A stretch of 22,553 nucleotides of DNA, taken from the IMG/VR virus record IMGVR_UViG_3300027971_000239, positions 1-22,553 of that record; one strand, written 5' to 3'. A model generated the notes under the pieces. The model was not told where the DNA came from, did not search any database, and was given only the letters and a program-made list of their open reading frames with translations. This stretch comes from a virus. Positions 685-22,408 of this stretch are shown one piece after another. The translations under genes and the position numbers were made by a program. The first letter of the stretch is position 1. The number at the start of each line of letters is the position of its first letter.

Positions 685-694
685 GATTGAGTCC

Positions 695-1723: not shown

Positions 1724-1726
1724 GCG

Positions 1727-2623: not shown

Positions 2624-2692
2624 TTCGCACCCTCAATCGTTGGATTTGAGACTTCAGGAAAACAATCTTTTCTGCGATCAGTCGCCAGATCC

Positions 2693-2926
2693 TCATCCTC
2701 GCCACCCCTGCTCAATCTGGCCGTCCTGAAGCCACGTCCTAAGCGCGCGCTGCGCCTCGCCCAGGCAGGCATACGTCGACCAAATCTGCTCTCTGAGCTG
2801 TGTCTCGCCAGGTGCAGTCGACTGCCAGCGCATCATCAAATCTGCACCGACCTGGTCGAACGCCTGCGCAAGCAAGGGGTCCTCGAGCAGCCGACGCGCA
2901 TGGTTGCCACGCTCGATATCGCTCAC
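2693..2926 (-). CDS. Small conserved head-module protein of unknown function
   Basis: 77 residues, helical and Arg/Gln-rich, with the core DLMMRWQSTAPGETQLREQIW. Small proteins with an LLxxPLxxxAFxxxxxxxxxxW(Q/R)xT pattern are common beside portal genes of podoviruses, but I know no assigned function. The start codon is GTG at 2926-2924, overlapping the portal stop as GTGA, so it should be translated by ribosomes finishing the portal gene. That coupling makes it a real gene despite its size. It is followed by a 69-bp gap before the AVPE-repeat gene. Confidence 0.7.
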   Translation of the reverse strand: MSDIERGNHARRLLEDPLLAQAFDQVGADLMMRWQSTAPGETQLREQIWSTYACLGEAQRALRTWLQDGQIEQGWRG

Positions 2927-5019
2927 TGGTAGGCCCCCGGATCAACCTGCTGCTGCATCGCCTGCTGCTGCTCGCGGTCGCGGTCCATCATTGCCTTGAT
3001 CTGCGCCGTGTCGACCGTGGCCGCGTACTTCAGCTCGATCTCACGCGCTCGCAGCGCCGTGTCGGCCTCGATCCGGTCACGCTCACGGTCGTCTGCGGCA
3101 CGCGCCTTGTCGCGCTCCAGCTCAAGCTTCGCGGCATTGATCGCGATGTCAGCCTTGATCTTCTCGGCCTCGACCTGCGCCAGGATCTGCGCGGGATCAG
3201 GCTGCGGCTGAGATTGCGGGGGCTGCCAATCCGGCGGCACCGCCGTGAAGAATTGGCTCGCGTCTCGGAAGCCGCTGAGTTCGACGATCTTGGCTAACGT
3301 CGTGCGGTACTGCGCGAGGCTCACCATAGGATTGCCTGGCCCCATCTGCGCAAGGATCTGCTCTTGCTTCTGCGAGATAGCCGTCAGCACCGCGATGCGC
3401 TCTTCGTTGCTTGTAGCGCTAAGCGCCACATTCACGTCGACGTCCATGTCGGCATTCCAGACGCGGGGATCGACCTGCACGAACTGCCCGCGCATGCGGA
3501 TCATCATCGGGCGGTCCTGGTGCTGAACGAACATGCGCAGCATGCCCCTGAAGAGCCGCTTCAGACCCGTCTCGGCGAATATGCGCGCGACCAGCTCAAT
3601 GCGGCCCTGCGCCGCACTGATCGTGGCCGCCACCGCAGCACGCGTGCTGGACTGCAAGGCATCCGCGTTCAAGCCTTGGCTCGCGCGAGACATGCCGGTG
3701 CGCGTCTCTTTGAGTGTGTCCAGGTACTCGATAAGCGGGAACGCGGCCTGCCCCACAAATGGCGTCGTGAGCGGCTGCACCATTCCAGGCGCACGCATCC
3801 GCACGATGCCACCGGTCTGGACATTCATGACGTCGGCAATGTTCACCTGGCCGTCGACGACTGCCGTCCGTGGGTGGATGCTCTGACTGAGGCTGTCCAG
3901 GACGTCGCGGAACAGTTGGCTCTTAACACGCTGAATGTCCATCAGCTTGTCGGCCTCGGACTGGCCGACAAACGTGTGCGGCTCGGGGTCCGGACAGAAC
4001 GCCGCGAACGGGATCTCGCTTGCGCCCTCGACGGCGACGACGTTGTACGCGCCGCCGATCGTGCAGACCTTCAGCAGCTCCGCGATGCCGTCGCCGTCCC
4101 GGTCGAACCGGATATAAGACTCAACATACGTCACACGCTGCGAGGCGTCGTCCCGGCGGTCTGCTTGCGGCCACAGGAGCGGGTTACGGACCTGCGCCTG
4201 AAGCGAGTATTCAAGTTCGTCCTCGTCGCCGCCCGCGTGCTCCCTGACCTCTTCCTCGTCATACCCCATCGCGACCAGGTCGCTGACCGTGAGCGATTGA
4301 CGGTGAGCAACCAGGCTGGCGCTATCCAGGTCTCGTGCGCGACGGTCGACCAGGAATTCCTCGGACGGGACGGCAGCGACACGGTACCTCGTCGATTCAT
4401 CGACCTTTCTAATTCTGAGGTCGAACGTGATCTGGCCGGTCTCGTCTTGCTTTTCCTGGAGGCTCGTGACCTCGACGCCCGGCTCGTTGAGAAGGACCGC
4501 AACGCTTTGCTCGTCCAGTTGCGTGTAGGCGTACTCGCTGATCTTGCGGTCGGTCTCGTGCCACCACTTGACGACGCCAGTCTTGCGTAGGAGAGCGTCC
4601 TTGAAGACGTCCCAGAGCACGCTGAAGCCCGGGTTCTGCTTCGTGAAGACGTAGTGCGCAAGCTCGGTGGCCTGCTCGGCGAACTGGACATCTTCGGGGC
4701 CGATAGGTACGTACTCAGCGATGCGCTCGGCGCCCATAAAAATCCGCATCAGCGGCGGCATCATGCCGATCACCGCATCTCTCACGTCGGTGCTGACGTG
4801 CAGGCTACGCCCGGCTTCGGTGTCGTCGCCCTCAAATAGCTCGCCACGGTAGTACCGAGTGGCTTTGACGCGGTCCTTGGAGACCTGCTCCTCAAACTCG
4901 ATCGCGTCCCGGATCTCGGCAGCAACAGCAGCCTGAAGCGCTCCCGACGCGGCGGCATCGCTTACGTCGTCATCTCTGACGGCGTATTCGTCGCTCTCGT
5001 CGAAATCGCTGATATCCAT
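2923..5019 (-). CDS. Portal protein, P22-like podoviral family
   Basis: 698 residues, close to the usual size of P22-type portals (about 700-725). It forms the dodecameric ring at the unique head vertex through which DNA enters and leaves. The N-terminus is acidic. The core contains RVKATRYYRGE, the patch DVRDAVIGMMPPLMRIF and later a VVKWWHE segment, all typical of the family. The C-terminal 100 residues form a long Gln/Glu/Arg-rich helix (barrel-like region). It is the first gene of the leftward structural operon, with a good promoter just upstream (TTGCGA and TATAAG, 17-bp spacing). The start at 5019 has only a weak ribosome binding site. The large terminase gene, normally its upstream partner on the same strand, diverges from it here. 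Confidence 0.87.
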   Translation of the reverse strand: MDISDFDESDEYAVRDDDVSDAAASGALQAAVAAEIRDAIEFEEQVSKDRVKATRYYRGELFEGDDTEAGRSLHVSTDVRDAVIGMMPPLMRIFMGAERIAEYVPIGPEDVQFAEQATELAHYVFTKQNPGFSVLWDVFKDALLRKTGVVKWWHETDRKISEYAYTQLDEQSVAVLLNEPGVEVTSLQEKQDETGQITFDLRIRKVDESTRYRVAAVPSEEFLVDRRARDLDSASLVAHRQSLTVSDLVAMGYDEEEVREHAGGDEDELEYSLQAQVRNPLLWPQADRRDDASQRVTYVESYIRFDRDGDGIAELLKVCTIGGAYNVVAVEGASEIPFAAFCPDPEPHTFVGQSEADKLMDIQRVKSQLFRDVLDSLSQSIHPRTAVVDGQVNIADVMNVQTGGIVRMRAPGMVQPLTTPFVGQAAFPLIEYLDTLKETRTGMSRASQGLNADALQSSTRAAVAATISAAQGRIELVARIFAETGLKRLFRGMLRMFVQHQDRPMMIRMRGQFVQVDPRVWNADMDVDVNVALSATSNEERIAVLTAISQKQEQILAQMGPGNPMVSLAQYRTTLAKIVELSGFRDASQFFTAVPPDWQPPQSQPQPDPAQILAQVEAEKIKADIAINAAKLELERDKARAADDRERDRIEADTALRAREIELKYAATVDTAQIKAMMDRDREQQQAMQQQVDPGAYQ

Positions 5020-5047
5020 AGGGTAAGCGCATCTATCTACGCCGGCA

Positions 5048-5076
5048 CTTATATCAGTAGAATGTTTCTATCGCAA
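5048..5076 (-). promoter_or_regulatory. Predicted sigma-70 promoter for the portal/head operon
   Basis: On the minus strand, TTGCGA (5076-5071) and TATAAG (5053-5048) are separated by 17 bp, giving 4/6 and 5/6 matches to consensus. Transcription would begin near 5041, about 20 nt before the portal start at 5019. The -35 lies inside a hairpin/palindrome (5068-5091), so it may be regulated. Confidence 0.55.
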
Positions 5077-5091
5077 GTCTCGCTTCGATAG
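5068..5091. other. Palindrome in the portal/large-terminase divergent region
   Basis: CTATCG (5068-5073) and CGATAG (5086-5091) are exact inverted repeats. The stem extends inward by AAG/CTT past one bulged C, leaving a 5-nt loop. It overlaps the predicted -35 of the leftward promoter and ends 10 bp before the terminase ATG. It could be an operator, or a hairpin in the terminase leader. Confidence 0.5.
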
Positions 5092-5101
5092 GTTCACTCT
5101 A

Positions 5102-6517
5102 ATGGCATCTCAGGCACCGCAGGACAGCCCGTTTCACGACTTCCTGAAGCGCTACCTGCACGACCCCTCAGGCTTTGTCTCGGACATCCTGAAGGTGGAG
5201 CCGGATGCCTGGCAGCGCGAACTGATGGACGCGGTCGCCCGGGGCGAGCGCAAAATCTCAGTGCGATCCGGTCACGGCGTAGGCAAGTCAACCGTGACGT
5301 CGTGGGTGCTTTTGTGGCATATCCTCTTCAGGTACCCATCGAAGGCAGTCGTCACCGCGCCCACCAGCGCCCAGTTGTTCGACGCCCTGTTCGCCGAACT
5401 GAAGGGCGTCATCAACAACCTGCCCCCGGTCTTGCGCGAGCTGCTTGAGGTCAAGCAGGACCGCATCGAGCTAAAAGCTGCGCCAACCGAGTCCTTCATC
5501 TCAGCGCGTACGTCTCGCGCCGAACAGCCAGAAGCGTTGGCCGGCGTCCACTCTGAGTATGTTTTGCTGATCGCCGACGAGGCGTCCGGTATCCCGGAGT
5601 CGGTCTTCGAGGCCGCCTCGGGCTCGATGTCGGGTCACTCCGCGACGACAATCTTGCTCGGCAACCCGACGCGGTCATCTGGCTACTTCTACGACACGCA
5701 CAACCGCCTCAGAGATCATTGGTGGACCCGCAAGGTCTCCTGTTTGGACTCGAAGCGGGTCTCGGCCGAATACGTCGCCGAAATGGGCGTGCGCTACGGC
5801 GAAGAGTCCAACGCCTACCGTATCCGCGTGCTCGGGGAGTTCCCGCTCGCCGACAACGACACCATGATCCCGATCGATCTGATCGATTCGGCGGTCAATC
5901 GAGACGTCTCCTCATCGCCAACAGCGCCCATCGTTTGGGGTCTAGACGTGGCGCGGTTTGGATCCGACTCGTCGGTCTTATGCAAACGGCAATCGAATGT
6001 GGTGCTGTCGGTTCAAAGCTACCGCAATCTGGACCTGATGGCTCTGTGCGGAGTCGTCGTCAATGAGTTCGAGTCATCTTCCGTTCGCCCCGCAGAGATC
6101 CTGATCGACTCCATCGGCCTAGGGGCCGGCGTCGTCGACCGACTGCGCGAGTTGGGGCTGCCAGTGCGCGGCATCAACGTATCCGAATCGCCGTCGATGG
6201 CCGGCACCTACCTCAACCTGCGCGCCGAACTATGGGGCAAAGCAAAAGACTGGCTATCTAAGCGTGATTGCAAGCTGCCGCGCGACGATCGCCTGTCATC
6301 CGAGCTTGCGACAGTGAAATATCACTTCTCCAGCTCGGGCCGCCTCCAGGTCGAGGGGAAGCAGTCCATCAAAAGTCGCGGCCTACCCTCGCCAGACGTT
6401 GCCGACGCATTTGTGCTGACATTCGCCTCAGACGCGGCCACCATCGTCCACGGCTCGGCGTGGGGCGCAGGGTCGTGGAACAAGCCGCTCGTGCGGGCGA
6501 TTCCCAGGATCGTCTAG
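5102..6517 (+). CDS. terL: Terminase large subunit (ATPase and nuclease)
   Basis: 471 residues, normal length. This is the packaging motor that translocates DNA into the procapsid and cuts concatemers. ATPase domain: Walker A SGHGVGKS (56-63), then VVTAPTSAQ (83-91) and Walker B VLLIADE (154-160). RNase H-like nuclease domain: Asp282 in WGLDVARFG, Asp336 in ILIDS, and Asp432/Asp435 in SPDVADAF, so all expected acidic residues are present. The ATG at 5102 is preceded by TAGG at a workable distance. It is on the plus strand while the small terminase and portal are on the minus strand, which is unusual. A TAGAAT box (5058-5063) could be its -10, but no good -35 is visible. The gene ends 10 bp from the convergent recombinase gene. 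Confidence 0.95.
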   Translation: MASQAPQDSPFHDFLKRYLHDPSGFVSDILKVEPDAWQRELMDAVARGERKISVRSGHGVGKSTVTSWVLLWHILFRYPSKAVVTAPTSAQLFDALFAELKGVINNLPPVLRELLEVKQDRIELKAAPTESFISARTSRAEQPEALAGVHSEYVLLIADEASGIPESVFEAASGSMSGHSATTILLGNPTRSSGYFYDTHNRLRDHWWTRKVSCLDSKRVSAEYVAEMGVRYGEESNAYRIRVLGEFPLADNDTMIPIDLIDSAVNRDVSSSPTAPIVWGLDVARFGSDSSVLCKRQSNVVLSVQSYRNLDLMALCGVVVNEFESSSVRPAEILIDSIGLGAGVVDRLRELGLPVRGINVSESPSMAGTYLNLRAELWGKAKDWLSKRDCKLPRDDRLSSELATVKYHFSSSGRLQVEGKQSIKSRGLPSPDVADAFVLTFASDAATIVHGSAWGAGSWNKPLVRAIPRIV

Positions 6518-6527
6518 AGCGCTGTCA

Positions 6528-7208
6528 TTAAGCTTGCGCCTGGTGACGGTTGATCACTCGGCAGACCGCCACGTGGCTTAACTTGAAGCCGAAGTACGTC
6601 TCCAAGTCCGCGCTGATCTTGCGTGACGCCACGCCTTGGGCGCCCTGCTCCAAGATCCACTTAGTCGCCGTCTGCTCGGCATAATCCTCGACCAGCACAG
6701 CCTCCTTGCCAATGCCCTCCTTGCGGTACCCGAAAGGCGTCACGCCGCCAGTGTGGCCGCCGCGCGCCTTCTTGGCCTTGCGGCCCTCCTGCGTGCGCTC
6801 CCTGATCCTCGTGCGCTCAAACTCAGCCATTGCCGCCAAGATCGTGAAGAACACCTTGCCTGTGCCCTCGCCAGTCACCGGGTCCACACCAATGTCAGCC
6901 ACGATCAGCTTCACCCCAGCCTCGCGCAGCATCCTCGAGGTGGCCAGTGCGTCTTCCGTATCGCGAAACGCCCTGTCCAACTTACTCACGATCAGCGTGT
7001 CGTCTTTGGTCAGCTTGGCGAAGAGCACACCGCCAGCCTGACGCCTTGCAAACGGCACACTACCGCTCACGGCCGGTTCGACCGCCATCTCGTCAAGCTC
7101 AACGCCGTGGTAGTCAGCGATCGCCCTGACCTTGCGCTCCTGCTCGGCCAGGCTCTGACCGGACTCCTGCTCCTGCGTGCTCACCCTGCAATATCCGTAC
7201 GTGCTCAT
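6528..7208 (-). CDS. Serine recombinase (resolvase/invertase family)
   Basis: 226 residues. The N-terminal catalytic domain opens YGYCRVST with the nucleophile Ser10, followed by SKLDRAFRD (75-83) and the helix MAEFERTRIRERT (127-139), all standard for resolvases and invertases. The C-terminal part (about 195-222) contains a helix-turn-helix. It would cut and rejoin DNA at a dyad site through a 5'-phosphoserine intermediate. It lies between the two terminase genes, tail-to-tail with the large subunit. Its promoter region carries a 30-bp dyad (7221-7250) overlapping the -10, plausibly its own binding or crossover site. It could be an invertase, a resolvase or a captured transposon-type gene. 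The target cannot be determined here. Confidence 0.9.
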   Translation of the reverse strand: MSTYGYCRVSTQEQESGQSLAEQERKVRAIADYHGVELDEMAVEPAVSGSVPFARRQAGGVLFAKLTKDDTLIVSKLDRAFRDTEDALATSRMLREAGVKLIVADIGVDPVTGEGTGKVFFTILAAMAEFERTRIRERTQEGRKAKKARGGHTGGVTPFGYRKEGIGKEAVLVEDYAEQTATKWILEQGAQGVASRKISADLETYFGFKLSHVAVCRVINRHQAQA

Positions 7209-7220
7209 TGCTGATCATCC

Positions 7221-7250
7221 TGTTACAAACGTCCTAGGACAATCATAACA
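7221..7250. promoter_or_regulatory. 30-bp dyad, candidate recombinase binding site or operator
   Basis: The perfect 10-bp palindrome GTCCTAGGAC (7231-7240) is flanked symmetrically by TGTTA (7221-7225) and TAACA (7246-7250), with 22 of 30 positions symmetric. Its size and layout resemble serine-recombinase crossover or resolution sites. It begins 13 bp upstream of the recombinase start and covers that gene's predicted -10. Confidence 0.55.
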
Positions 7251-7271
7251 GATTGATTTGCGCACACCCAA
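7242..7271 (-). promoter_or_regulatory. Predicted promoter of the serine recombinase
   Basis: On the minus strand a TATGAT -10 (7247-7242, 5/6) lies 18 bp from TTGGGT (7271-7266, a weak -35), with an A/T tract just upstream. The rest of the gap to the small terminase (7272-7418) is very GC-rich, includes the palindrome CCCCCGGGGG (7339-7348), and shows no gene. Confidence 0.4.
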
Positions 7272-7418
7272 AATTTTTTTGACGGGTGGATTCGGTGAGC
7301 GTGGGGGTGCGCGCACGCATCCGCCCCCCTATCGCCGGCCCCCGGGGGGGCTCGCGGCCGACGGCCAGCAGGCCGGCGACCGCGACTGCGCCGTTGTGCA
7401 GCGCAGCAACAGCCTCTG

Positions 7419-7916
7419 TTACGTCTTCTTAACGCTTGAAACAGATATTGCAGGCTGATCACCCTGCATTGACGCATCGTTTATTACTACTGCGTCACTC
7501 ACGTCGAGCGCCTGCTGAGCCTGTTGTGCAGCCACCAGCAAGCCTCGCAGGTCGGTCAGGTGCGCGGCAGCGATGTTGACTGTCAGGCTTGGTCGATGGT
7601 CGCCGTACGTGCCAGGCAGTCTCTTGCTTGCGATCCATCGGCGCGTGTCGACCCGCAGCCGCGCGTCGTTGGACTCGTCGGCGATGTCGATGATGTCGTC
7701 GACCATCAGCTCGGCGGCGTCCTCGCGGGCGCGCGCGAAACGAGCCGCCCGCTCGGGCGTCTCATTGATCCACAAGCTCACCATCGACGTCGCTACGCCG
7801 AACTCAGCCGAGATCCTTCTTTGACTCCAGCCCTCAGCCATTCGCTCCAGCAGGTACTCCTCGCCGGCCTCTTGCAGACGGGCGAAGTTGGCACGCTTCT
7901 TTGGCGAACCAGCCAT
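7419..7916 (-). CDS. terS: Terminase small subunit, Sf6-like
   Basis: 165 residues. The small subunit binds phage DNA and hands it to the large subunit for the first cut. An N-terminal helix-turn-helix occupies about 29-52 (GWSQRRISAEFGVATSMVSLW). It is followed by the RAREDAAELMVDDIIDIAD region and RVDTRRWIASKRLPGTYGD (88-106), whose 'R.R(V/T)D.RKW...K..P..YGD' signature is diagnostic of Sf6-type small terminases as I know them. The C-terminal 50 residues are probably the portal/large-subunit interaction tail. It is on the minus strand, whereas its partner large subunit is on the plus strand 0.9 kb away. The start at 7916 lacks a strong Shine-Dalgarno (TAAGGAGT-like bases lie a few nt upstream). 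Confidence 0.85.
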   Translation of the reverse strand: MAGSPKKRANFARLQEAGEEYLLERMAEGWSQRRISAEFGVATSMVSLWINETPERAARFARAREDAAELMVDDIIDIADESNDARLRVDTRRWIASKRLPGTYGDHRPSLTVNIAAAHLTDLRGLLVAAQQAQQALDVSDAVVINDASMQGDQPAISVSSVKKT

Positions 7917-7952
7917 ATCTAACTCCTTGATTTCGTTAAGCGTAGTTTTGCT

Positions 7953-8309
7953 TTACATCGAGCAATCGTCAATTGCATCGCGCGACAGCTTCGATTCCTT
8001 CCAGACGACCGGGTCTTCCCCCTGACGCTGCACCAGCCACGACGACGTGCCAGCGATATGGCTGATCAGCAGCCAGTGCATCCGCTTGCGAGCCGCCTGC
8101 TCCATCGCCTGCTTGCGGTGCGCCGACGTGATCGCTGCCGTGTTCTTGACCTCGACGAGCCATATCTTTCCGTCCGGGTCGCCAGCCAAGAAGTCGGCGA
8201 CGGCCGTCCCGGCATTCAGCTCGTGCACCTGCCAGTCGCGATCCGCGAACAGTCGCTGCGCCGTTTGCTGACCGCGCCTGCCCTTCGACCTTGCTGCCTT
8301 TCCACCCAT
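7953..8309 (-). CDS. Holliday-junction-resolvase-like PD-(D/E)XK nuclease
   Basis: 118 residues. The motif set is that of the Hjc/VRR-NUC-type PD-(D/E)XK fold: Glu30, Asp39 (AVADFLAG), then Glu53-Val-Lys55 (WLVEVKNT), followed by a helix with Gln67 (HRKQAME). It would cleave branched DNA made during phage replication or packaging, which fits its place immediately upstream of the terminase genes on the same strand. The frame is also open from an ATG at 8324, but GGAGGT (8321-8316) lies 6 nt before the ATG at 8309. The internal ATG is therefore the likely start and the first five codons of the longer form are leader. It could also be a restriction-type nuclease. Confidence 0.75.
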   Translation of the reverse strand: MGGKAARSKGRRGQQTAQRLFADRDWQVHELNAGTAVADFLAGDPDGKIWLVEVKNTAAITSAHRKQAMEQAARKRMHWLLISHIAGTSSWLVQRQGEDPVVWKESKLSRDAIDDCSM

Positions 8310-8440
8310 GCTCTTACCTCCCATGCCTCTGCGGCTTGCGTACAGCCTGCGTGAGGCGTTGTTTATCGTGCCTTGCTACGAGGGTAGCTTAGATTGCCTT
8401 TCAATCGATTCCAGAGGCTCCGACGATTCCAGCACCTTCC

Positions 8441-8544
8441 GACACGCGGACACGCGGGACACGCGGGTCCCCCTAAACTCCCAGATAAAATAAAATTCAC
8501 TTTGAACTCTAAGGAGGTCCGCGTGTCGCGCGTGTCCGCGTGTC
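8441..8544. other. Candidate replication origin: inverted triplets of GACACGCG around an AT-rich core
   Basis: The left arm (8441-8470) has three consecutive GACACGCG boxes starting at 8441, 8449 and 8458. The right arm (8516-8544) has three CGCGTGTC boxes, at 8520, 8529 and 8537. The arms form a nearly complete 29-30-bp inverted repeat around a 45-bp AT-rich stretch (8471-8515). Iterons plus an AT-rich unwinding element, beside a primase-helicase gene, is the layout of a phage or plasmid origin. The right arm contains the primase stop codon. An operator or a recombination site are alternatives. The rest of 8310-8440 shows no gene. Confidence 0.6.
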
Positions 8545-10948
8545 AGCGGAATGACTCGTTGCTACCTCTCATGACCTCTGACCTGATGCGTTCCGCTTCG
8601 ACGCCTTCCCACTTGTCGTGGTTGCGCAGGCTCCAGACCCGGTAGCGCTTAGAGCCGATCTCGATCGTTCGCCCCTTCCCTGACGAATCCCGAAGCACCT
8701 GGGCGCCGGCGTCTGTCATGGCGTGGCGCACGGCGTTGGCGGCGAGCTTCCCGCATTGCTCCTCGAGGTACTGGACGGCATCGGCTGGTGTGATCAGGTC
8801 GCTTCGCCAGTCCTCGATGAGCTGGTCGGCTGCACGCCTGACGCCTGACTTGCTGGCGTCGACGGCCACTGACTTAGCGGCGCTCATGGGCGGGCGCTCG
8901 CCGGGCTTGAAGGCTGAGATGTCGCGCACCCGCAGCCAGTGGGCGATCGCTGCGATGAATGCCGGGTCGGCCAGCGCCTGGTACAGCCGTTCGTAGTCGG
9001 CTGCTGGCCTCGGTGGCTCGTTGTGCACGACGACCCGCCAGCGCCGGTCGTTGTCGGCCATTGGGATCGCGTTCTCGTGGTTGCTGAACACGAGCCAGCG
9101 GCAGACGTTCTTCTCGAGCACGGTGCGCCCGTACTTGGGGTTGATAGCACGCACCTCGGCGTTCAGGAGTGACTTGAGCCTGTTGATGTGCCGGTAGCCG
9201 GCCTCGCCGCCTTCCTGGATCTCGTCGACCATCGCCAGCATGGCCTCGGAGAGCTGGCCGTTGAATTGCGACTCCAGCAGGGACGCCAGGTCGACGTTGG
9301 GTGCGACGTGCCCACGCCAGACGCGGGCCAGGACAGACGCCAGCCAGTTGCGCCCGGTGCCGGTGTGGCGAGCGATCATGAGCCAGCCGAAGTGCGGCAG
9401 CACGCCGGGCTGCTGCTCGATGTGGGCGAGCCAGTCGAGGAAGACTGCGCGCTCGGTCTCGTCGGCGATCAGGTACGCGACGTGCTCAAGGAACACGCCG
9501 ACCGCCAGGGCCGAGTTGGCTACGGGTGCCCGCTTGAAGTCGCGCCAGGTGTTGATCGATGGGTGCCCTTCCGGTCCCATGCAAAAGACGTCCTCGCCCG
9601 GCATGAAGGTGCGCCGTGCGACCGTAAGCCGTGACGGGTCGGCCAGCCAGCCGTTGATGGCCGGGCGCATCTTCTTGCCGTCGGCTGAGGCTGTGACGCT
9701 GGCTGCGAACGTGTTGCGGGCGTCGGACAGTGGCAGGGAGAGCCTTGGGTTGTCCAGTGCGCAGACCTGGGAGCCGTCCTGCACGAAGACCAGCTTGCGC
9801 AGCATGTCGTCTTGGCTCATGACCGTAGGCAGCGGGTCGATGCTGAGCCGCTGGATGTCGGCGTTGGCGTCTTTCTGTTCCTGCCGGCGGGCTTGTCTGA
9901 GGGCGTTTGCCGTGGCCTGGGACTTCGAGGCGCGTGCGTCTGTGGTGACCTGCGCCTCAAACGCCCCAAAGCCGTCAGGCGGCTCCCATCCTGATTCTCT
10001 GGCCGTCATCTTGAGCGTTCCCAGTGTCACCCCGCCGGGCTTGTCGGTGAAGCTGCGCCACTTGTAGAAGAAGTCGCGCTCGTTGTGCTTGGGGCTGGTG
10101 GCTGACCATGCGGACACGGTCTCGAATGAGCCACCGGAACTCTTGGCGGCCATGCAGATGCGCAGCCAGTCGTCGTAGCCCAGGTCGGCGTTGACGATAT
10201 GGCGCAGCATCTCCTCGACCTGGTTGTCCGCGACCTTCTCGTGCGCGGTCATCGGGCGCTCGACCTCGACCTCATGCGAATCGACCGGGGTCTCGATGCC
10301 CGCCGACGCCAGGAGTTCGCGCAGGGACCGCACGCCAATCAGGTTCCCGCTGATCTCGGTGCCTGTCAGCATGACGCTGGTGCGTCTGGAGCGTGGCATC
10401 CCGAAGATTTCGATCTCTTGGCCGTTGCCCAGGTCGATCTTGGGCGGCATGGTGGCGTCTGCTGGCGCCATGACCCAGATGTGCGCGCCCTTCAGCGAGT
10501 GGGACCGCTCGTACAGGTGCCCTGCGGCCTTGGCGATCTCGATCAAGCGCTTGATGCGGATATCGGCCGGGCCGCCTGAGCGCTTCATGTCAAGGTCGAT
10601 GCCAACCAGGACCAATCCTCGTTGCTCGATGGGGCGGTGCATGACGACGCCCCAGTAATCACCTGGCGGGGCCTTGCCGACCATCACCGCTACCGCGTTC
10701 AGCAAATCGCTCAACGGCGTGCCGGCCGAGACGCCGCTGGCCTTGATTGACTGCGGCACCTTGTCCATCTCGCCCGGCTTGTTGGCTTTCGGCGCCAGCC
10801 TGAAGCCGCAGAACATCGCATCTGCGGCGAGCTTGGCGATTGCAAGCGCCGTGGCGTATGAGGCCGTTGTGGCCTTGCCTGGGAAGGCAGCTTCCATCGT
10901 AGAATCCATGTGTTGATCGCGGCTGTACCCGCGTTTAGCATTGCTCAC
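8543..10948 (-). CDS. Primase-helicase (AEP-like primase, PriCT-2, SF3-like ATPase)
   Basis: 801 residues. N-terminal primase-polymerase features: GIDLDMK with Asp118/Asp120, SLKGAHIWV (His156) and EIEIFG (178-183). A PriCT-2-type domain covers about 244-320. The C-terminal helicase has a Walker A-like RHTGTGRNW (527-535), Walker B LAMVDE (571-576) and a sensor strand FSNHENAIP (621-629). Arg replaces the usual Lys in the P-loop. It should unwind and prime phage DNA at a nearby origin. It follows the Cro-like gene by 28 nt in the leftward early operon. The GTG at 10948 lacks a properly spaced Shine-Dalgarno. An ATG at 10909 (788 residues) is an equally plausible start. Confidence 0.85.
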   Translation of the reverse strand: MSNAKRGYSRDQHMDSTMEAAFPGKATTASYATALAIAKLAADAMFCGFRLAPKANKPGEMDKVPQSIKASGVSAGTPLSDLLNAVAVMVGKAPPGDYWGVVMHRPIEQRGLVLVGIDLDMKRSGGPADIRIKRLIEIAKAAGHLYERSHSLKGAHIWVMAPADATMPPKIDLGNGQEIEIFGMPRSRRTSVMLTGTEISGNLIGVRSLRELLASAGIETPVDSHEVEVERPMTAHEKVADNQVEEMLRHIVNADLGYDDWLRICMAAKSSGGSFETVSAWSATSPKHNERDFFYKWRSFTDKPGGVTLGTLKMTARESGWEPPDGFGAFEAQVTTDARASKSQATANALRQARRQEQKDANADIQRLSIDPLPTVMSQDDMLRKLVFVQDGSQVCALDNPRLSLPLSDARNTFAASVTASADGKKMRPAINGWLADPSRLTVARRTFMPGEDVFCMGPEGHPSINTWRDFKRAPVANSALAVGVFLEHVAYLIADETERAVFLDWLAHIEQQPGVLPHFGWLMIARHTGTGRNWLASVLARVWRGHVAPNVDLASLLESQFNGQLSEAMLAMVDEIQEGGEAGYRHINRLKSLLNAEVRAINPKYGRTVLEKNVCRWLVFSNHENAIPMADNDRRWRVVVHNEPPRPAADYERLYQALADPAFIAAIAHWLRVRDISAFKPGERPPMSAAKSVAVDASKSGVRRAADQLIEDWRSDLITPADAVQYLEEQCGKLAANAVRHAMTDAGAQVLRDSSGKGRTIEIGSKRYRVWSLRNHDKWEGVEAERIRSEVMRGSNESFR

Positions 10949-10976
10949 CCTTGCAGGCGAACGGAAGCGGGCCGGC

Positions 10977-11240
10977 TCATGCCGGCTCGCGACTCATCGG
11001 TCGGTAAACCCTCAGGCCTACAAAGAGGTGCGGCACCAGCCGCTCACGCTGAACCCCGGTCGCCCGCTCGATCTCCACCGCCATCGCTGGCGAGATCCCC
11101 TTTGCACCCGTGACCCACGCACTGACGGCCTGGCGCGTCACGTCAAGCGCTTCAGCTAAGGCCGACTGGTTGCCGGCGATCTCGATTGCCTCTTGCAAAG
11201 CCTCAAGGGCAAGCCGCTGTTGAGTGTCAGAAATCGACAT
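10977..11240 (-). CDS. Cro/YdaS-like transcriptional regulator
   Basis: 87 residues. A single helix-turn-helix occupies about 24-45 (NQSALAEALDVTRQAVSAW), followed by GAKGISPAMAVEIERATGV, the arrangement of YdaS/Cro-type phage repressors. It is divergent from the CI-like gene across a 161-bp region rich in TGTCA half-sites. It is also the first gene of the leftward operon leading to the primase-helicase, so it most likely plays the Cro role: repressing CI and tuning early transcription during lytic growth. The ATG at 11240 is preceded by GGACAG. No toxin partner is visible next to it, so a toxin-antitoxin role is unlikely. Confidence 0.8.
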   Translation of the reverse strand: MSISDTQQRLALEALQEAIEIAGNQSALAEALDVTRQAVSAWVTGAKGISPAMAVEIERATGVQRERLVPHLFVGLRVYRPMSREPA

Positions 11241-11401
11241 TTTCGCTGTCCAAAAAGCGAACGATGACAGTAGCGCTTATCCACAGTCAACTCCCCGAAG
11301 CACTCCTGTCAGAGATAGCCTGGCTGTCACCGTTTGTCGGTTGACAACCACAGGTTGCAGATGCACAGTCACTGCTCACCAAATAAGCAGACGGCGGCAT
11401 C
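11241..11401. promoter_or_regulatory. Immunity (cI/cro) operator-promoter region
   Basis: This divergent spacer between the two regulators has a dyad TTGTC-GGTT-GACAA (11335-11346 core) and separate TGACAG/CTGTCA half-sites near 11266, 11306 and 11323. TTGACA at 11341-11346 with CACAGT 17 bp later (3/6) may be the CI promoter. Leftward, TTGACT (11290-11285) is a possible -35 for the Cro gene, with no clear -10. The half-sites match those in the operator at 11928-11943, suggesting one repressor acts at both places. Confidence 0.55.
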
Positions 11402-11854
11402 ATGGCTAGCATCACCCCACTCGAGCGCGAGGCACTCGCGCGACGCATCAGAGACGCCCGGATTGACGCTCGGCTGACGCAGGCGGGGCTCGCAAAGCGT
11501 CTGGGCATCACCCGTTCAGCGGTCAGTCAGTTCGAGTCCGGGCGCAACCAGCCTGAAATCAAGAACTTGCACGCGATTGCTGCGGTGACTGACAAGCCCT
11601 TGAACTGGTTCATGATTGCCGACGATCAGACCGCGATGCGGGCAGCAGACGGTGCGCTGTCTGATGCGGCCGTGACGGCCTTGCGCGCCCTGCCCCCGCT
11701 GGTGCTGGCGGTGTTTGAGCGCGAGATCCTGCGGGCGCATGCCTACGTCGCGGCCCTGCCCGCGTACCTGTCCAGCATTCCCTTGCCGCCCGCTGGCCCT
11801 GCCAGGGATGCGTTGCTGGATCAGGTCAAGGCCGACATGGCGTCACTGCGCTGA
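11402..11854 (+). CDS. CI-like repressor, XRE helix-turn-helix, lacking a peptidase domain
   Basis: 150 residues. The XRE domain spans about 12-68 (RRIRDARIDARLTQAGLAKRLG, then SAVSQFESGRNQPEI), with recognition helix near 38-46. The remaining 80 residues are Ala/Leu/Pro-rich and show no LexA-type Ser/Lys autocleavage site, so induction would need another route (for example an antirepressor or loss of oligomerisation). As the divergent partner of the Cro-like gene it is the probable lysogeny repressor. A strong intrinsic terminator follows 24 bp after the stop, isolating it from the rightward early genes. The ribosome binding site is weak. Confidence 0.8.
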   Translation: MASITPLEREALARRIRDARIDARLTQAGLAKRLGITRSAVSQFESGRNQPEIKNLHAIAAVTDKPLNWFMIADDQTAMRAADGALSDAAVTALRALPPLVLAVFEREILRAHAYVAALPAYLSSIPLPPAGPARDALLDQVKADMASLR

Positions 11855-11878
11855 CGTATTGCCGACGAGCGGCGACCA

Positions 11879-11905
11879 GACACGCACCCCGCGTGTCATT
11901 TTTTT
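11879..11905 (+). terminator. Intrinsic terminator after the CI-like gene
   Basis: GACACGC (11879-11885), loop ACCCC, and GCGTGTC (11891-11897) form a perfect 7-bp GC-rich stem, followed by ATTTTTTT. This is a textbook rho-independent terminator. Confidence 0.9.
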
Positions 11906-11919
11906 GCCATCTTTGGCAA
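11904..11919. other. Small palindrome after the terminator
   Basis: TTGCCA and TGGCAA are separated by TCTT, giving a perfect 6-bp dyad between the terminator T-run and the rightward promoter. It could be a regulator site or a secondary hairpin. No partner is evident. Confidence 0.35.
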
Positions 11920-11926
11920 TTACAGC

Positions 11927-11955
11927 TTGACATCTAGCTGTCATCAATCCACCAT
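11927..11955 (+). promoter_or_regulatory. Rightward early promoter with operator over the -35
   Basis: TTGACA (11927-11932, perfect -35) is followed 17 bp later by CACCAT (3/6). Overlapping it, TGACA (11928-11932) and TGTCA (11938-11942) form a dyad with a CTAG centre, 14 of 16 positions symmetric. The same half-sites occur in the cI/cro spacer, so CI or Cro probably represses this promoter in the lysogen. Confidence 0.55.
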
Positions 11956-12057
11956 TCGTCCATGCCGTACAGCTTAGCTGACCAGCTAATCATTTCGGGT
12001 CGGTTGATAGCCGGGTCAGATGGCCGTCAAATGGTTAATTCTTTCGGAGTGGGTGGA

Positions 12058-14830: not shown

Positions 14831-15430
14831 ATGACCATGCAAACAGCCCGCGTTGTCGTTAAAGGCATCGCACCCTTGCTTACGAACAACCCGCAGACGG
14901 TTGATCGATTCAATACCTACGCCCGCAAGATGAAGGCCATCAACGACAAGAAGACCCGTCGCACTGATGACGATTACCTCGAACTGCGCGACCTTGAACT
15001 GGCGTCGAAGATTTACTTCGATGACGAGATCGGCGCATACATCCCGTCGACATGGGTCAGCGAAGGCATTGCTGGCAGTGCGTTCTCAACGATCAAGGTC
15101 GGTCGCGACAAGATTCGCGGCAGCCTGTTCGTGATCGACCAGAAGATCAAGCTCGAATATCAGGACATGGGCAAGGTCAAGGCGGCGGCAGACATCATCG
15201 CTAACCCGCAATTCCGGCACACGATCGCGCTGCCGCAGGGTCAGGTTCGCGTCGTCAAGTGCTTCCCGATCTTCCACAAGTGGTCGTTCACCGCGAACGT
15301 CGAATTCGACGACTCGGTGCTGGATCGTCAGATGCTCACGCGCGTCTGCCAGTCGGCCGGCAAGTACGTCGGATTCGGCGACCTGCGCCCGACGTTTGGT
15401 CGCGCAGAAGTCGAGGTGAAGAATGGCTGA
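14831..15430 (+). CDS. Conserved-looking early phage protein; RAMP/Cas7-like fold possible but unproven
   Basis: 199 residues. It begins with a beta-strand/turn (ARVVVKGIAPLLTNNPQTVD), has a basic helical stretch (25-45), a central KIRGSLFV strand, and ends with a Gly-rich motif, KYVGFGDLRPTFGRAEVEV. The alternation of strands and Gly-rich loops reminds me of RAMP-type RNA-binding proteins, but this is an impression from sequence style. GAGAGAGA precedes the ATG. It overlaps the next gene by 8 nt, and the unusual structured array lies just downstream of that gene, so an RNA-binding role is worth testing. It could instead be a recombination accessory protein. Confidence 0.65.
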   Translation: MTMQTARVVVKGIAPLLTNNPQTVDRFNTYARKMKAINDKKTRRTDDDYLELRDLELASKIYFDDEIGAYIPSTWVSEGIAGSAFSTIKVGRDKIRGSLFVIDQKIKLEYQDMGKVKAAADIIANPQFRHTIALPQGQVRVVKCFPIFHKWSFTANVEFDDSVLDRQMLTRVCQSAGKYVGFGDLRPTFGRAEVEVKNG

Positions 15431-15884
15431 GCGCGGCGAGGCGATGTCCGAGTTCTTCGACGAGCTTGATGCGCGAGGGTTGCTGGACTATGGCGCGGTG
15501 ATCGAGGGCCCGCTCGTGCGCGAGTTACTCGACATTGAGTTGCCCGAGATCGGCCGCAAGGCCGACTTCGACCGGGCCGCCCTGGCCGAGCTTTCGGCGA
15601 TCGGATATGTGCGCGATCAGCTGCTGAAGAACGGCAAGTACCTGGCCGGCACGGCTGGCGGGTATCGGGTGCTGCTGCCGTCTGAGAACGCCAAGCAGGT
15701 TGATGCGTTGATGGAGGCGGCCGCCCGCAAGTTGTCGCGTGCTCGTGTTCTGAACGCGTCGACTCCGAGTGAGTTTCGCGGGCAGATCGACCAGCAGGAG
15801 GCGCGTATCTCGATGAACCGCAGCGGGATGTTGAGCCGGTTCCGGCCCGGCGGTTCTGCTGGCGATCAGCCTGCTGCGAACTAA
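15423..15884 (+). CDS. Unknown phage protein coupled to the preceding gene
   Basis: 153 residues. An acidic, helical N-terminus (FFDELDARGLLDYGAVIEG) leads into REL-rich helices and a short middle domain (YVRDQLLKNGKYLAGTAGGYRVLLPSENAKQ) with a basic, Arg-rich C-terminal half (about 98-143). The middle part resembles the 'wing' of a small nucleic-acid-binding domain, but no family was recognised. GAGGTG lies 6 nt before the ATG at 15423. A second ATG at 15444 is less likely. It overlaps the 199-residue gene by 8 nt, and the hairpin/pentamer array starts 13 nt after its stop, so it is the gene physically closest to the array's 5' end. Confidence 0.65.
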   Translation: MAERGEAMSEFFDELDARGLLDYGAVIEGPLVRELLDIELPEIGRKADFDRAALAELSAIGYVRDQLLKNGKYLAGTAGGYRVLLPSENAKQVDALMEAAARKLSRARVLNASTPSEFRGQIDQQEARISMNRSGMLSRFRPGGSAGDQPAAN

Positions 15885-15971
15885 CGAACTAATGATTGTG
15901 CATGGCGGCGCATTGGAGCGCACAGCATTGCAGCGCAAGTCACAGCATCGCAAGGCAGCGCAGCGCATTTC

Positions 15972-16024
15972 AAAGCAACGCGGCAAGCCCGTCATGCGGG
16001 TTTGTCGAGTCGTTTTGGCTCAAG
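15972..16024 (+). repeat. Array module core 1
   Basis: AAAGCAACGCGG at 15972-15983. Hairpin 1 arms CAAGCCCG (15984-15991) and CGGGTTTG (15997-16004), loop TCATG, with one G-U pair. Hairpin 2 GAGTC/GGCTC with loop GTTTT (16007-16021), one U-G pair. Confidence 0.88.
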
Positions 16025-16087
16025 GACAGGGCAGTGCATGGCAGCGCAAGGAAGCGATTGGCGTCGCAGCGCAGCGCATCGCAACTC

Positions 16088-16140
16088 AAAGCAACGCGGG
16101 TTATCCGTTATGCGGATATCCCGAGTCGTTTTGGCTCAAG
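16088..16140 (+). repeat. Array module core 2
   Basis: AAAGCAACGCGG at 16088-16099. Hairpin 1 arms GTTATCCG (16100-16107) and CGGATATC (16113-16120), loop TTATG, one mismatch. The closing pair changes to GG/CC (others GG/TC). Hairpin 2 is the same as core 1. Confidence 0.88.
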
Positions 16141-16223
16141 GGCATGGCAATGAAGGGCACCGCAGTACATCGCATAGAAGCGCAGCGGACAGCACCGAGC
16201 GGCAAGCCAGTGAATGGCATCGA

Positions 16224-16276
16224 AAAGCAACGCGGCAAGCCCGTTATGCGGGTTTGTCGAGTCGTTTTGGCTCAAG
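16224..16276 (+). repeat. Array module core 3
   Basis: AAAGCAACGCGG at 16224-16235. Hairpin 1 arms CAAGCCCG (16236-16243) and CGGGTTTG (16249-16256), loop TTATG. It is identical to core 1 except for one loop base. Hairpin 2 is the same. Confidence 0.88.
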
Positions 16277-16344
16277 GGCAACGCATGTCAAGGCATAGCA
16301 AGGCACCGCACCGCACCGCATCGAAATGCGTAGCACGGCACCGC

Positions 16345-16401
16345 AAAGCAACGCGGACAGTCTGTTCAAGCAGCAGATTGTTCGAGTCGTTTTGGCTCAA
16401 G
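16345..16401 (+). repeat. Array module core 4
   Basis: AAAGCAACGCGG at 16345-16356. Hairpin 1 arms ACAGTCTG (16357-16364) and CAGATTGT (16374-16381) around a 9-nt loop, entirely different stem bases yet all paired (one G-U). Hairpin 2 is the same as in the other cores. Confidence 0.88.
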
Positions 16402-16474
16402 TGCATTGCACCGCAATGCAGTGCTGCGCACTGCGGCGCAATGCAGCGCATCGCAATTCACAGCTTGGCAATGC

Positions 16475-16530
16475 AAAGCAACGCGGTCAGTTCATTCGGT
16501 GAACTGATCAAGTCGTTTTGACTTTTTGAC
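16475..16530 (+). repeat. Array module core 5, with terminator-like second hairpin
   Basis: AAAGCAACGCGG at 16475-16486. Hairpin 1 arms TCAGTTCA (16487-16494) and TGAACTGA (16500-16507), loop TTCGG, perfect. Hairpin 2 changes on both sides to AAGTC/GACTT, keeping the GTTTT loop and pairing, and runs into TTTTT. It could act as a weak terminator or attenuator 13 nt before the DUF3310 start. Confidence 0.85.
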
Positions 16531-19115: not shown

Positions 19116-19348
19116 GCCTGATGCTGACCTGCAAAGACATCGCCGCTCGGCTCCAGATGAACGAAGTCTACGTGCGCGACGTGCTCTCGAAGCGTTCAGA
19201 CTTCCCGCCGGCGTACCGGATTGGCGGTGCGCTGCGGTGGGTCGAACTGGACTTCGACGAATGGCTGGCTAGTAAGCAGCTCAAGCCTGCGGTGCGAAAG
19301 CGTCGTCAACCTAAGCGCACTGCAATCGACTCGGCCGGCTCCCTGTAG
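19112..19348 (+). CDS. Excisionase-like (AlpA/HTH_17-type) DNA-binding protein
   Basis: 78 residues from the GTG at 19112, which overlaps the preceding stop as GTGA. An ATG three codons later is an alternative. LTCKDIAARLQMNEVYVRDVL (5-25) is a MerR-type helix-turn-helix, followed by the wing and motif FPPAYRIGGALRWVELDFDEWL (31-52), diagnostic of the AlpA/excisionase group. The basic tail (KPAVRKRRQPKR) would add DNA contact. It lies next to and tail-to-tail with the integrase (43-bp overlap), so it most likely directs integrase toward excision. Transcription of one gene would produce antisense RNA to the end of the other. Confidence 0.8.
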   Translation: MSLMLTCKDIAARLQMNEVYVRDVLSKRSDFPPAYRIGGALRWVELDFDEWLASKQLKPAVRKRRQPKRTAIDSAGSL

Positions 19349-20289
19349 TACACAAGCAGCGAATTCAGATCACGGTGCCCGATCATGCGTGCAAGATCGT
19401 GGATCGACAGGATGCGAGCGAGCCTTGTAACAGCGGTGGCTCGCCCGTCGTGGAATCGAAAGCCCGACAGCCCTGCCGCATCACGCGCACGACGAAAGAT
19501 GGTCGACAGCTCGTCAGCGTCAATGTGAAACACCCTGCCCTGCTTGATGGGCCTGCGCACCTGGAGCAAGCGCTTCTTGCGCAGCACGTCGAGCAACTCG
19601 ACGGCCTTGGTTGAGAGCGGCACCGACCGGCTAGAACCGTTCTTCGTTTTCGGAAGATGCGCTACCCTGCCGGTGATATCGGTCCACCGCAGGCCGGTTA
19701 GCTCGCCGGCACGCATTCCGGTTTCAAGCGTGAGCAGCAGCGCGACCGCAACCTCATGGCCGACGGTCGTCACCTCGCCAGCGTAGCCAAGCTGCGCCAG
19801 CATTGCGTCGACTTCAGCGGCTGAGATCAAGCGTTCACGGTGCGGCGCGTCTGACGGCTTTTTGACGTCGGCCAGCGGGTCGCGCGAGATCCAGCCCCAT
19901 TCGAGCCGGGCGCGCTTCAGCACCGAAGCGATAAAGTTCATCTCGCGCCGCACGGTGGATGCTGAGACCTCCTGCATCCGCTGATCACGCCAGGCAGCGA
20001 TCACGGCCGGAGTGACCTGATCTAGCCGGGTGTTCGCCCAAGAGTAGCGCCTTGCGATCCTTGCTCGCGTCGCATCGCCCTTGGTTCTCGGCTCGAGCGC
20101 ATCGAGCGCATCAAGCGCATCTGAAAGCGTCTGTCGGGTACGCTGGTGCTCGCCAGACAGGATCTCAGCCTCGCGTGCGATCGCCCAATCCTCTGCCTCT
20201 CTGCGGGTCGGAAAGCGCTTCGATTCACGCACGCCTGCACGCGCAATCTCAGCACGCCACAGATCGCCAACCTTCCTGATCGATGCCAC
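19306..20289 (-). CDS. int: Tyrosine integrase
   Basis: 327 residues from the GTG at 20289, chosen because GGGGGAA lies about 7 nt upstream. An ATG at 20331 adds 14 residues without a good ribosome binding site. The N-terminal domain opens VASIRKVGDLWRAEI (arm-binding type), followed by a SAM-like core-binding domain. Catalytic residues are Arg193 (ETGMRAGEL), Lys216 (PKTKNG), His280/Arg283 (FHDGRATA), His305 (MIGHRD) and Tyr314 (LLVYYRE), a complete set. It joins attP to the host attB. The upstream spacer carries repeated TGGCGTAA boxes likely to be its arm sites. It overlaps the excisionase at the 3' end. Confidence 0.93.
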   Translation of the reverse strand: MASIRKVGDLWRAEIARAGVRESKRFPTRREAEDWAIAREAEILSGEHQRTRQTLSDALDALDALEPRTKGDATRARIARRYSWANTRLDQVTPAVIAAWRDQRMQEVSASTVRREMNFIASVLKRARLEWGWISRDPLADVKKPSDAPHRERLISAAEVDAMLAQLGYAGEVTTVGHEVAVALLLTLETGMRAGELTGLRWTDITGRVAHLPKTKNGSSRSVPLSTKAVELLDVLRKKRLLQVRRPIKQGRVFHIDADELSTIFRRARDAAGLSGFRFHDGRATAVTRLARILSIHDLARMIGHRDLNSLLVYYREPAESIAVRLG

Positions 20290-20557
20290 TGTTCGGTTCC
20301 CCCGGCGTAAATTCTGGCGTAATGCCAGCATGCGCCGGATTGTAAGTGCTTGTTTTTTATAGCGCCAGATTGTTACGCCAAACTGTGCGAATCTGGCCTA
20401 AGACGTTGATTTACAAGGGGAATATTGGCCTTTGCTGGTGCCCCGAGCGGGCACTGGATACCAAGCCTAGAGCCAGTCTTCAGGCGATTGGCGTAATTTC
20501 GACGGCACTCAGCTTGTACAGTCCCACACAATTTTTCGCATTATTTTCGATAAACGC
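20290..20557. other. Candidate attP region with integrase arm-type boxes
   Basis: This non-coding stretch between the integrase and the next promoter holds GGCGTAA at 20304-20310, TGGCGTAAT at 20315-20323, its inverse TTACGCCA at 20373-20380, and TGGCGTAAT again at 20489-20497. GCCAGATT (20364-20371) and AATCTGGC (20390-20397) are inverted repeats around the third box. A GC hairpin GTGCCC/GGGCAC lies at 20438-20454. Repeated boxes on both sides of a core are what tyrosine integrases use. The crossover core itself cannot be placed without the host site. Confidence 0.55.
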
Positions 20558-21397: not shown

Positions 21398-21419
21398 TCT
21401 GCCGCCTGCGAAGTTTTAG
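21318..21419 (+). CDS. Very small phage ORF, basic (33 residues)
   Basis: Starts MFKDNPAWPFGRMRPAK and ends PADLPPAKF. GGAG lies about 10 nt before the ATG at 21318. Short basic 'M.KDNP.WPF' peptides recur at operon ends in phages of this type in my memory, but I cannot cite a family. It overlaps the preceding gene in another frame and ends 1-4 nt into the convergent ART gene. Treat as probable, not certain. Confidence 0.42.
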   Translation: MFKDNPAWPFGRMRPAKQTRRKRYPADLPPAKF

Positions 21420-22408
21420 CGGATCGGCTGGCCGTTGCGCTCTAGGATGTTCAGCAGGCCCTCGTTGCCGGGGAAGACGACGAAGTTGCTGGTGCCTGAC
21501 CCTGCGCTGCGCGAGCCGCCGTCCAGGTAGCGGATGCCGGGGATGCCTTTGGCTCTCAGTGCCTCGGAAATAGCTGAGTTGTCCATACTATCCAGCATGT
21601 CGTTTTGCAGGGTTCGCATATCTGGGCGAGCTGCTTTTACCCATTGCGCATATGTACCGGGCTGCGTTTTTTCGTCAACCAGTTCTCGCACCGCTTTCCT
21701 CACCTCTGGTTTTTGCCTGTATAGCGGCTTGTCCCAGTCCAGCATCTTGGCGATCTGGTCGTCGGGCAGGTCGACTTTGTAGAGGTTGCCGATGCCTTCG
21801 TTTAGCAATCCGTCGTAATGCTTCCACTCAGCGCTGCCAACGGGCGCGCTATCCCGTAGCCTCTGCAAGGACAACGGCTTGGGTGCGGATTTGTTAAACA
21901 TGGTCGCGTATTGGTTTGCAACGTCAGGTGCCTCAGCCAAATACAGCCCATGCCCATAAGCCTGCGCACCTTCGCCCGTGCCGATCTTGCTGGCGTCGAA
22001 CCTGTCGAACTTGTGCGGCGAGCCGTGCCACACAATTGCGCCGGCCTGATTGCGAGTGGCCGCATTCATTGGCGCTTTAGCTGACGCATTCTCGCCTGCC
22101 TTTAGCAAGGCATTGGCAATCTGCGGAGCCTTTGCAGCCGCCACGATAGGCAGCACATTTCCAATGGACTCGCCGATCACATTGGCAACGGGCGATTGCA
22201 CGTCGCGCATCAGCCCTTGCGCCTTCATCCAGTCGGAGCCGCCAAACGGTGCCTGCGGGATCGGTACGCCAGCCTTGCGCAGCGCCCATGCAAGCGCATC
22301 TACCGGCGCGGAGACGGTAGATGCTGCGCTATTGCTTGCGGCTTGCGTTGCGTCTAGCAGCCCGCGAGAAAACGTCCGCCTGTTTTCTGGCGACAGAAGC
22401 CCACCCAT
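21416..22408 (-). CDS. Phage ADP-ribosyltransferase-like protein (ART-PolyVal domain)
   Basis: 330 residues. The N-terminal 120 are helical, Ala-rich and weakly hydrophobic (NVIGESIGNVLPIVAAAKAP), perhaps a membrane- or virion-associated segment. From 125 on the ART-PolyVal pattern is clear: IVWHGSPHKFDRFD (125-138), KIGTGEGAQAYGHGLYLAE (141-159), then a C-terminal GIPGIRYLDG with SNFVVF. Such domains transfer ADP-ribose from NAD to targets and occur in phage proteins that may be delivered with the DNA. Here it is a short, single-domain version. AGGAG precedes the ATG. It ends tail-to-tail with the rightward small genes and follows a lipoprotein gene, consistent with the end of the late operon. 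The substrate is unknown. Confidence 0.8.
   Translation of the reverse strand: MGGLLSPENRRTFSRGLLDATQAASNSAASTVSAPVDALAWALRKAGVPIPQAPFGGSDWMKAQGLMRDVQSPVANVIGESIGNVLPIVAAAKAPQIANALLKAGENASAKAPMNAATRNQAGAIVWHGSPHKFDRFDASKIGTGEGAQAYGHGLYLAEAPDVANQYATMFNKSAPKPLSLQRLRDSAPVGSAEWKHYDGLLNEGIGNLYKVDLPDDQIAKMLDWDKPLYRQKPEVRKAVRELVDEKTQPGTYAQWVKAARPDMRTLQNDMLDSMDNSAISEALRAKGIPGIRYLDGGSRSAGSGTSNFVVFPGNEGLLNILERNGQPIR

Follow-up and report, generated by a model that had tools for sequence, protein, structure and literature searches.

The locus analysed here raises the question of what kind of element is formed by five tandem copies of a double hairpin in a viral contig, and whether they constitute a new structured RNA of no known family, as a first-pass annotation had proposed. 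The window, meaning the whole stretch of DNA that was analysed, is 22,553 nucleotides long (IMG/VR record IMGVR_UViG_3300027971_000239). All five copies are present where that annotation had placed them, on the + strand, with hairpin 1 at 15982-16006, 16098-16122, 16234-16258, 16355-16383 and 16485-16509 and hairpin 2 at 16007-16021, 16123-16137, 16259-16273, 16384-16398 and 16510-16524. AAAGCAACGCGG was likewise described as preceding each copy and does so in 5/5; it comprises the final two pentamers of a repeat tract, described below, and the start of the hairpin tail. The hairpin-1 arms had been quoted correctly, but the pairing of GTTATCCG with CGGATATC in copy 2 contains one T-T mismatch. 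Copies 1 and 3 are near-identical in the hairpin-1 region, and the window therefore holds only four independent hairpin-1 versions. The five tails fold at -17.6 to -23 kcal/mol (z -3.1 to -3.8) on the + strand, whereas the complementary strands of the two tails folded in this orientation give weaker structures (z -1.7 and -0.1). The Rfam check that the annotation had proposed matched no family: there were 0 matches at gathering score in the window and its relatives, and a permissive search returned only chance microRNA-like matches.

The array sits after two genes, and each tail is preceded at its 5' side by a pentamer tract that the annotation had overlooked. The first gene, vipr (14831..15430, +), encodes a 199-aa RAMP/Cas7-like RNA-binding protein (PHROG 4652), an assignment based on homology and a predicted model. 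Its product matches phrog_4652 (E 4e-54) and, over the full length, the PDB entry 36pp_D, 'SUSP1 Vipr protein' (phmmer E 9.5e-18; hmmsearch profile E 9.2e-22), and is about 30% identical to a Felixounavirus protein. It models as a single-domain Csm3/Cas7-like RAMP, the low-confidence prediction (mean pLDDT 52) aligning along its length with Csm3 and further RAMPs (Z up to 6.0). The second gene, vap (VIPR accessory protein; 15423..15884, +), overlaps the 3' end of vipr and encodes a 153-aa protein predicted to be a winged helix from its AlphaFold2 model and synteny. This model (mean pLDDT 73) yields matches to winged-helix proteins, among them PurR (Z 7.0). Homologues of vap were found in phiHSIC (ORF20, E 7e-12) and, only weakly related but in the same slot, in Felixounavirus (E 1.4e-4), and one occupies this slot in 4/4 viral relatives; a tblastn search of the protein against phage records gave no match. 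The predicted winged-helix protein is fitting for the 'vap' slot.

These genes and repeats recall VIPR (Viral Interference Programmable Repeat), a CRISPR-like system of RNA-guided DNA recognition that a 2026 preprint was the first to describe, with characterisation in phage SUSP1 and in a prophage of Pseudomonas fulva (bioRxiv 2026.04.26.720920, PMC13142463). In the plan set out there, a vipr and a vap gene accompany vrRNAs in which GGY and NN, or 'a related consensus', alternate ahead of a structured 3' tail. These vrRNAs recognise double-stranded DNA, each NN pairing with two target bases while one is skipped, and hammerhead-interspersed arrays are also reported (bioRxiv 2026.04.26.720920). 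VIPR is possibly a pre-CRISPR form of RNA-guided DNA recognition, newly reported and working with a gapped code. Because vipr and vap adjoin the array and a pentamer tract is present, we identify the locus as VIPR, and the double hairpins, rather than representing an RNA without a family, form the 3' tails of its guide RNAs (vrRNAs). We are highly confident that the array is a VIPR guide-RNA array with five guides, located in a temperate-type phage contig; the locus is possibly of the SUSP1-like type II, types being assigned by Vipr phylogeny and vap1.

The sequence between the hairpins keeps a strict 5-base phase of GCA followed by two free bases, with 13-18 units per copy, and within the window this tract is confined to 15890-16493. 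Across 288 units from 7 loci, the entropy is 0.46, 0.83 and 0.46 bits at triplet positions 1-3 and 1.97 and 1.93 bits at the two NN positions. Parsing the + strand in this phase delimits five vrRNAs, whose tails are defined by folding and covariation. vrRNA 1 consists of 16 GCA/NN pentamers (15900..15979) and a tail of GCGG, hairpin 1 and hairpin 2 (15980..16021, fold z -3.4); vrRNA 2 of 13-14 pentamers (16026..16095) and a double-hairpin tail (16096..16137, z -3.1); and vrRNA 3 of 18 pentamers (16142..16231) and a double-hairpin tail (16232..16273, z -3.4). In vrRNA 4, 15 pentamers (16278..16352), of which 13 variable NN were decoded, precede a double-hairpin tail (16353..16398, z -3.8), and in vrRNA 5 the tail (16483..16524, also a double hairpin, z -3.8) follows 16 pentamers (16403..16482). 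Hairpin 2 of vrRNA 5 is AAGTC/GACTT followed by TTT, and may possibly serve as an additional weak terminator. A 209-aa open reading frame (15892-16521) runs across the array; we rejected a coding role because most of the unit spacings (116, 136, 125 and 126) cannot be divided by three. CTGATG-like strings in the related contigs L028 and L072 raised the idea of a hammerhead ribozyme, which was discarded, with no Rfam match in the window or among its relatives. Also rejected was an AACG/CGTT pseudoknot, considered by eye, that would join the start of the tail to the loop of hairpin 2, as it is missing in several relatives and competes with the stem.

The annotation had argued from covariation that the hairpin structure is selected. 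Within the window alone, hairpin pairing reaches 97%, a value equalled by 69/2000 whole-arm shuffles, which is suggestive and lends the claim modest support. Adding relatives gives 15 distinct versions of hairpin 1 from five phages, which are 95% paired over 10 positions when the arms are anchored at the outer pair, with changes on both sides in 7/10 pairs (37 cells). None of the 2000 whole-arm shuffles (0/2000) reaches 95%, and the covariation claim is therefore right once relatives are included. Hairpin 2, in 8 distinct versions, is 100% paired, as equalled by 18/2000 shuffles. Many stem pairs are G-U and valid on the + strand only. An RNA structure under selection is thus supported by compensatory changes across phages, by the strand-specific G-U pairs and by conserved place and orientation.

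Pattern scans of viral contigs recovered the same array and gene pair in the IMG/VR contigs L005/L010, L028, L072 and L007, and in L072 arrays flank the vipr/vap pair on both sides. Among annotated phages, Vibrio phage 1.266.O and phiHSIC share the first gene and a GCA/NN array, while homologues of this gene accompany a GGC/NN array in Mycobacterium phage LittleE and a GGT/NN array in Felixounavirus allfine; in Gordonia phage Trine this gene is present, with no tract seen in the short gaps around it. The array lies on the strand of the gene pair in every relative, and in phiHSIC and LittleE the pair opposes the structural genes around it, in the manner of a movable cassette. In 11/398 Pseudomonadota genomes we found 12 vipr-like loci, 11 of them with an adjacent 5-base array. 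One of these genomes (G275) has two separate vipr homologues, L080 and L091, and no 5-base array was detected near L091. L006 and L008 were discarded as chance matches, as were the hits of a blastn search of the array against phage records, all of 23 bases only. A pattern scan of the genome_contigs set gave 9 matches, none with a pentamer array, which we therefore attribute to chance.

Near-identical tails (GGTCAGGCTCTTGATTCGTCAGGGGTCTGATCGAGTTCTGATGGGACTC) recur with different guides on either side of vipr/vap in L072:4930-6590, and the TCAGTTCA tail type is common to copy 5 of the window and L005; this sharing among L072, L005 and the window suggests that guides and tails have been duplicated and exchanged. 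The elements between the GGC/NN tracts of LittleE (L077:5140-5520) resemble tRNA acceptor plus T-arm minihelices, for example CCGGC...CGATGG TTCGAGT CCATCG GCCGG, a tail very unlike that of the window. L007 (IMGVR_UViG_3300020043_005257, positions 1-6639) carries microvirus-like replication and major capsid reading frames (4807-6638) in addition to a VIPR array and genes, and is probably an assembly chimera; otherwise it would be a remarkable hybrid.

Elsewhere in the window, the nearest relative of the terminase, 65% identical, comes from a Manatee Spring metagenomic phage, and a megablast search with positions 1-12000 gave no match. The 22.5-kb contig encodes both a resolvase-family serine recombinase (6528-7208, -; Pfam Resolvase) and a tyrosine integrase (19306-20331, -). 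A 298-aa protein with long Ala/Glu/Pro/Val-rich repeats lies near the portal gene (1727-2623, -), and a 330-aa reading frame (21416-22408, -) contains IVWHGSPHKFDRFDASKIGTGEGAQAYGHGLYLAE, which we take to resemble an ADP-ribosyltransferase-like phage domain.

To which DNA might such guides be directed? Read with a one-base skip on the complementary strand, guide 4 gives GGx CGx TAx ATx GAx GGx GGx GGx CTx TAx CTx CAx GT, which translates to G-R-Y-(I/M)-(D/E)-G-G-G-L-Y-L-(H/Q)-V; GRY[IM]DGGGLYL[HQ]V is the arm-domain motif of P4-type integrases. At most 3 mismatches of 26 were found in 2/398 Pseudomonadota genomes (2 and 3 mismatches), against a rough chance expectation of 0.05 that assumes equal base frequencies, and the backward-pattern control gave 0. 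Both matches sit in full Arm-DNA-bind_3/Phage_integrase proteins. Two further matches came from viral contigs, with GRYxDGGGLYL[HQ]V in the reading frame; the pattern used there covered 22 positions, omitted the mismatched unit and was chosen after the genome matches had been seen. All four matches fall in integrase-type reading frames. At these loci guide 4 agrees at 23-24 of 26 positions with a one-base skip, versus 15-17 with skips of 0, 2 or 3 and at most 18 when the order of its units is scrambled; the best match within the window outside the array is 17/26, and the window's own integrase (19306-20331) has no Arm-DNA-bind_3 domain. Every match carries 2 or 3 mismatches of 26, mostly in the AT unit, and no exact target is known. 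The search beyond the window covered guides 3, 4 and 5, with guides 1 and 2 searched within the window only: for guides 3 and 4, exact patterns of 10 units gave 0 matches in viral contigs, and for guides 3 and 5, patterns of 13 units gave 0 in 289 genomes each. Judged from the guide-4 matches, the most likely target of vrRNA 4 is the integrase gene carried by P4-type integrating elements. As the motif is widely conserved, these matches could reflect the integrase family as a whole and not a particular rival.

Other readings of the array have to be set against this evidence. The hairpins are strong and covarying, and the periodic tract could serve an RNA-binding protein as a binding array, as might be expected of a stand-alone structured phage RNA, a protein sponge or regulator built from repeated double hairpins and unrelated to the neighbouring genes. 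We consider this very improbable, because the tract adjoins vipr homologues in unrelated phages and at 11/12 homologous genomic loci, GCA is fixed while NN is near-random, and guide 4 spells an integrase motif. Even less credible is a role as DNA rather than RNA, whether as an iteron, a replication or recombination site or a single-strand hairpin site. Both the replication/recombination surroundings, near genes for an ssDNA-binding protein and an exonuclease, and the 5-base spacing, half a helical turn, would suit such an element, but orientation to the vipr genes is kept in every relative, even where the pair opposes structural genes, and the stems need G-U pairs that are valid on the + strand only, the complementary strands folding poorly.

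The reading to which we give the least credence, regarding it as next to negligible, is that of a CRISPR-like array whose spacers are contiguous. In its favour are the repeat units, with their structured ends and variable parts, and the presence of a RAMP protein; against it, no Cas genes were recognised, the variable part is non-contiguous, with three of five bases fixed, and Vipr is one 199-aa protein that matches SUSP1 Vipr by sequence. The array's anatomy already contradicts this reading. Given the VIPR anatomy and the guide-4 match, the double hairpins are therefore not a new RNA class: they belong to a VIPR member with a GCA scaffold instead of GGY and a double-hairpin tail.

By analogy with the published systems, Vipr would assemble on each vrRNA with one subunit per GCA/NN unit, the GCA triplets forming a fixed scaffold gripped by successive subunits and the two bases after each GCA acting as guide. 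The double hairpin would be a constant 3' tail, a handle that binds or caps the RNP. Under the published VIPR rule each NN would pair with two bases of the target and the one after them would be skipped, so guides would read the first two positions of each codon and disregard the wobble base. The RNP may then bind rival mobile elements at their double-stranded DNA and repress their genes, with an integrase among its targets. We infer transcription, processing, RNP formation, DNA binding and repression from the preprint on the SUSP1 and P. fulva systems. This analysis itself yielded the homology of Vipr, the anatomy of the array, the structure of the tails, the synteny across phages and the guide-4 integrase match. 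More tentatively, and at somewhat below an even chance in our view, a VIPR branch reading a GCA triplet with a different tail could constitute an orthogonal code, one guide of which silences a rival integrase and so blocks or destabilises lysogeny.

The locus thus adds a GCA-scaffold VIPR member from an uncultivated phage, a guide decoded to an integrase motif, by which the one-base-skip rule appears sensible for another triplet, and covariation of the tail among five related viral sequences. It also offers a concrete way to find out whether the code can persist when the scaffold triplet changes, a question relevant to guide recognition by Vipr.

VIPR as a kind has been known since April 2026, and what differs here is the GCA triplet and the double-hairpin tail. 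Like VIPR, the locus combines vipr with one vap gene of predicted DNA-binding type and an adjoining array, has three fixed and two hypervariable bases per pentamer followed by a structured 3' tail, and, for guide 4, gives an apparently sensible mobile-element target when read with a one-base skip. The vrRNAs hold 13-18 pentamers, compared with 9-16 in VIPR as described. Unlike in the studied systems, the fixed triplet is GCA and not GGY, although GCA may be among the 'related consensus' types; because the preprint mentions related consensus motifs, we do not claim newness for GCA. The tail also differs in consisting of two adjacent hairpins, with a pseudoknot sought by eye only. With the Cas7/Csm3 RAMP effectors of class 1 CRISPR the locus shares a modelled RAMP-like fold, a glycine-rich C terminus and expected multimeric RNA binding, but it has no Cas operon, no contiguous spacers and a single small protein, and its period is 5 bases instead of 6. 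TIGR-Tas probably uses a different protein, and its array plan differs from that of the VIPR locus. The locus resembles TIGR-Tas in its tandem guide array and in its presumed phage-borne RNA-guided DNA targeting (PMC12045711).
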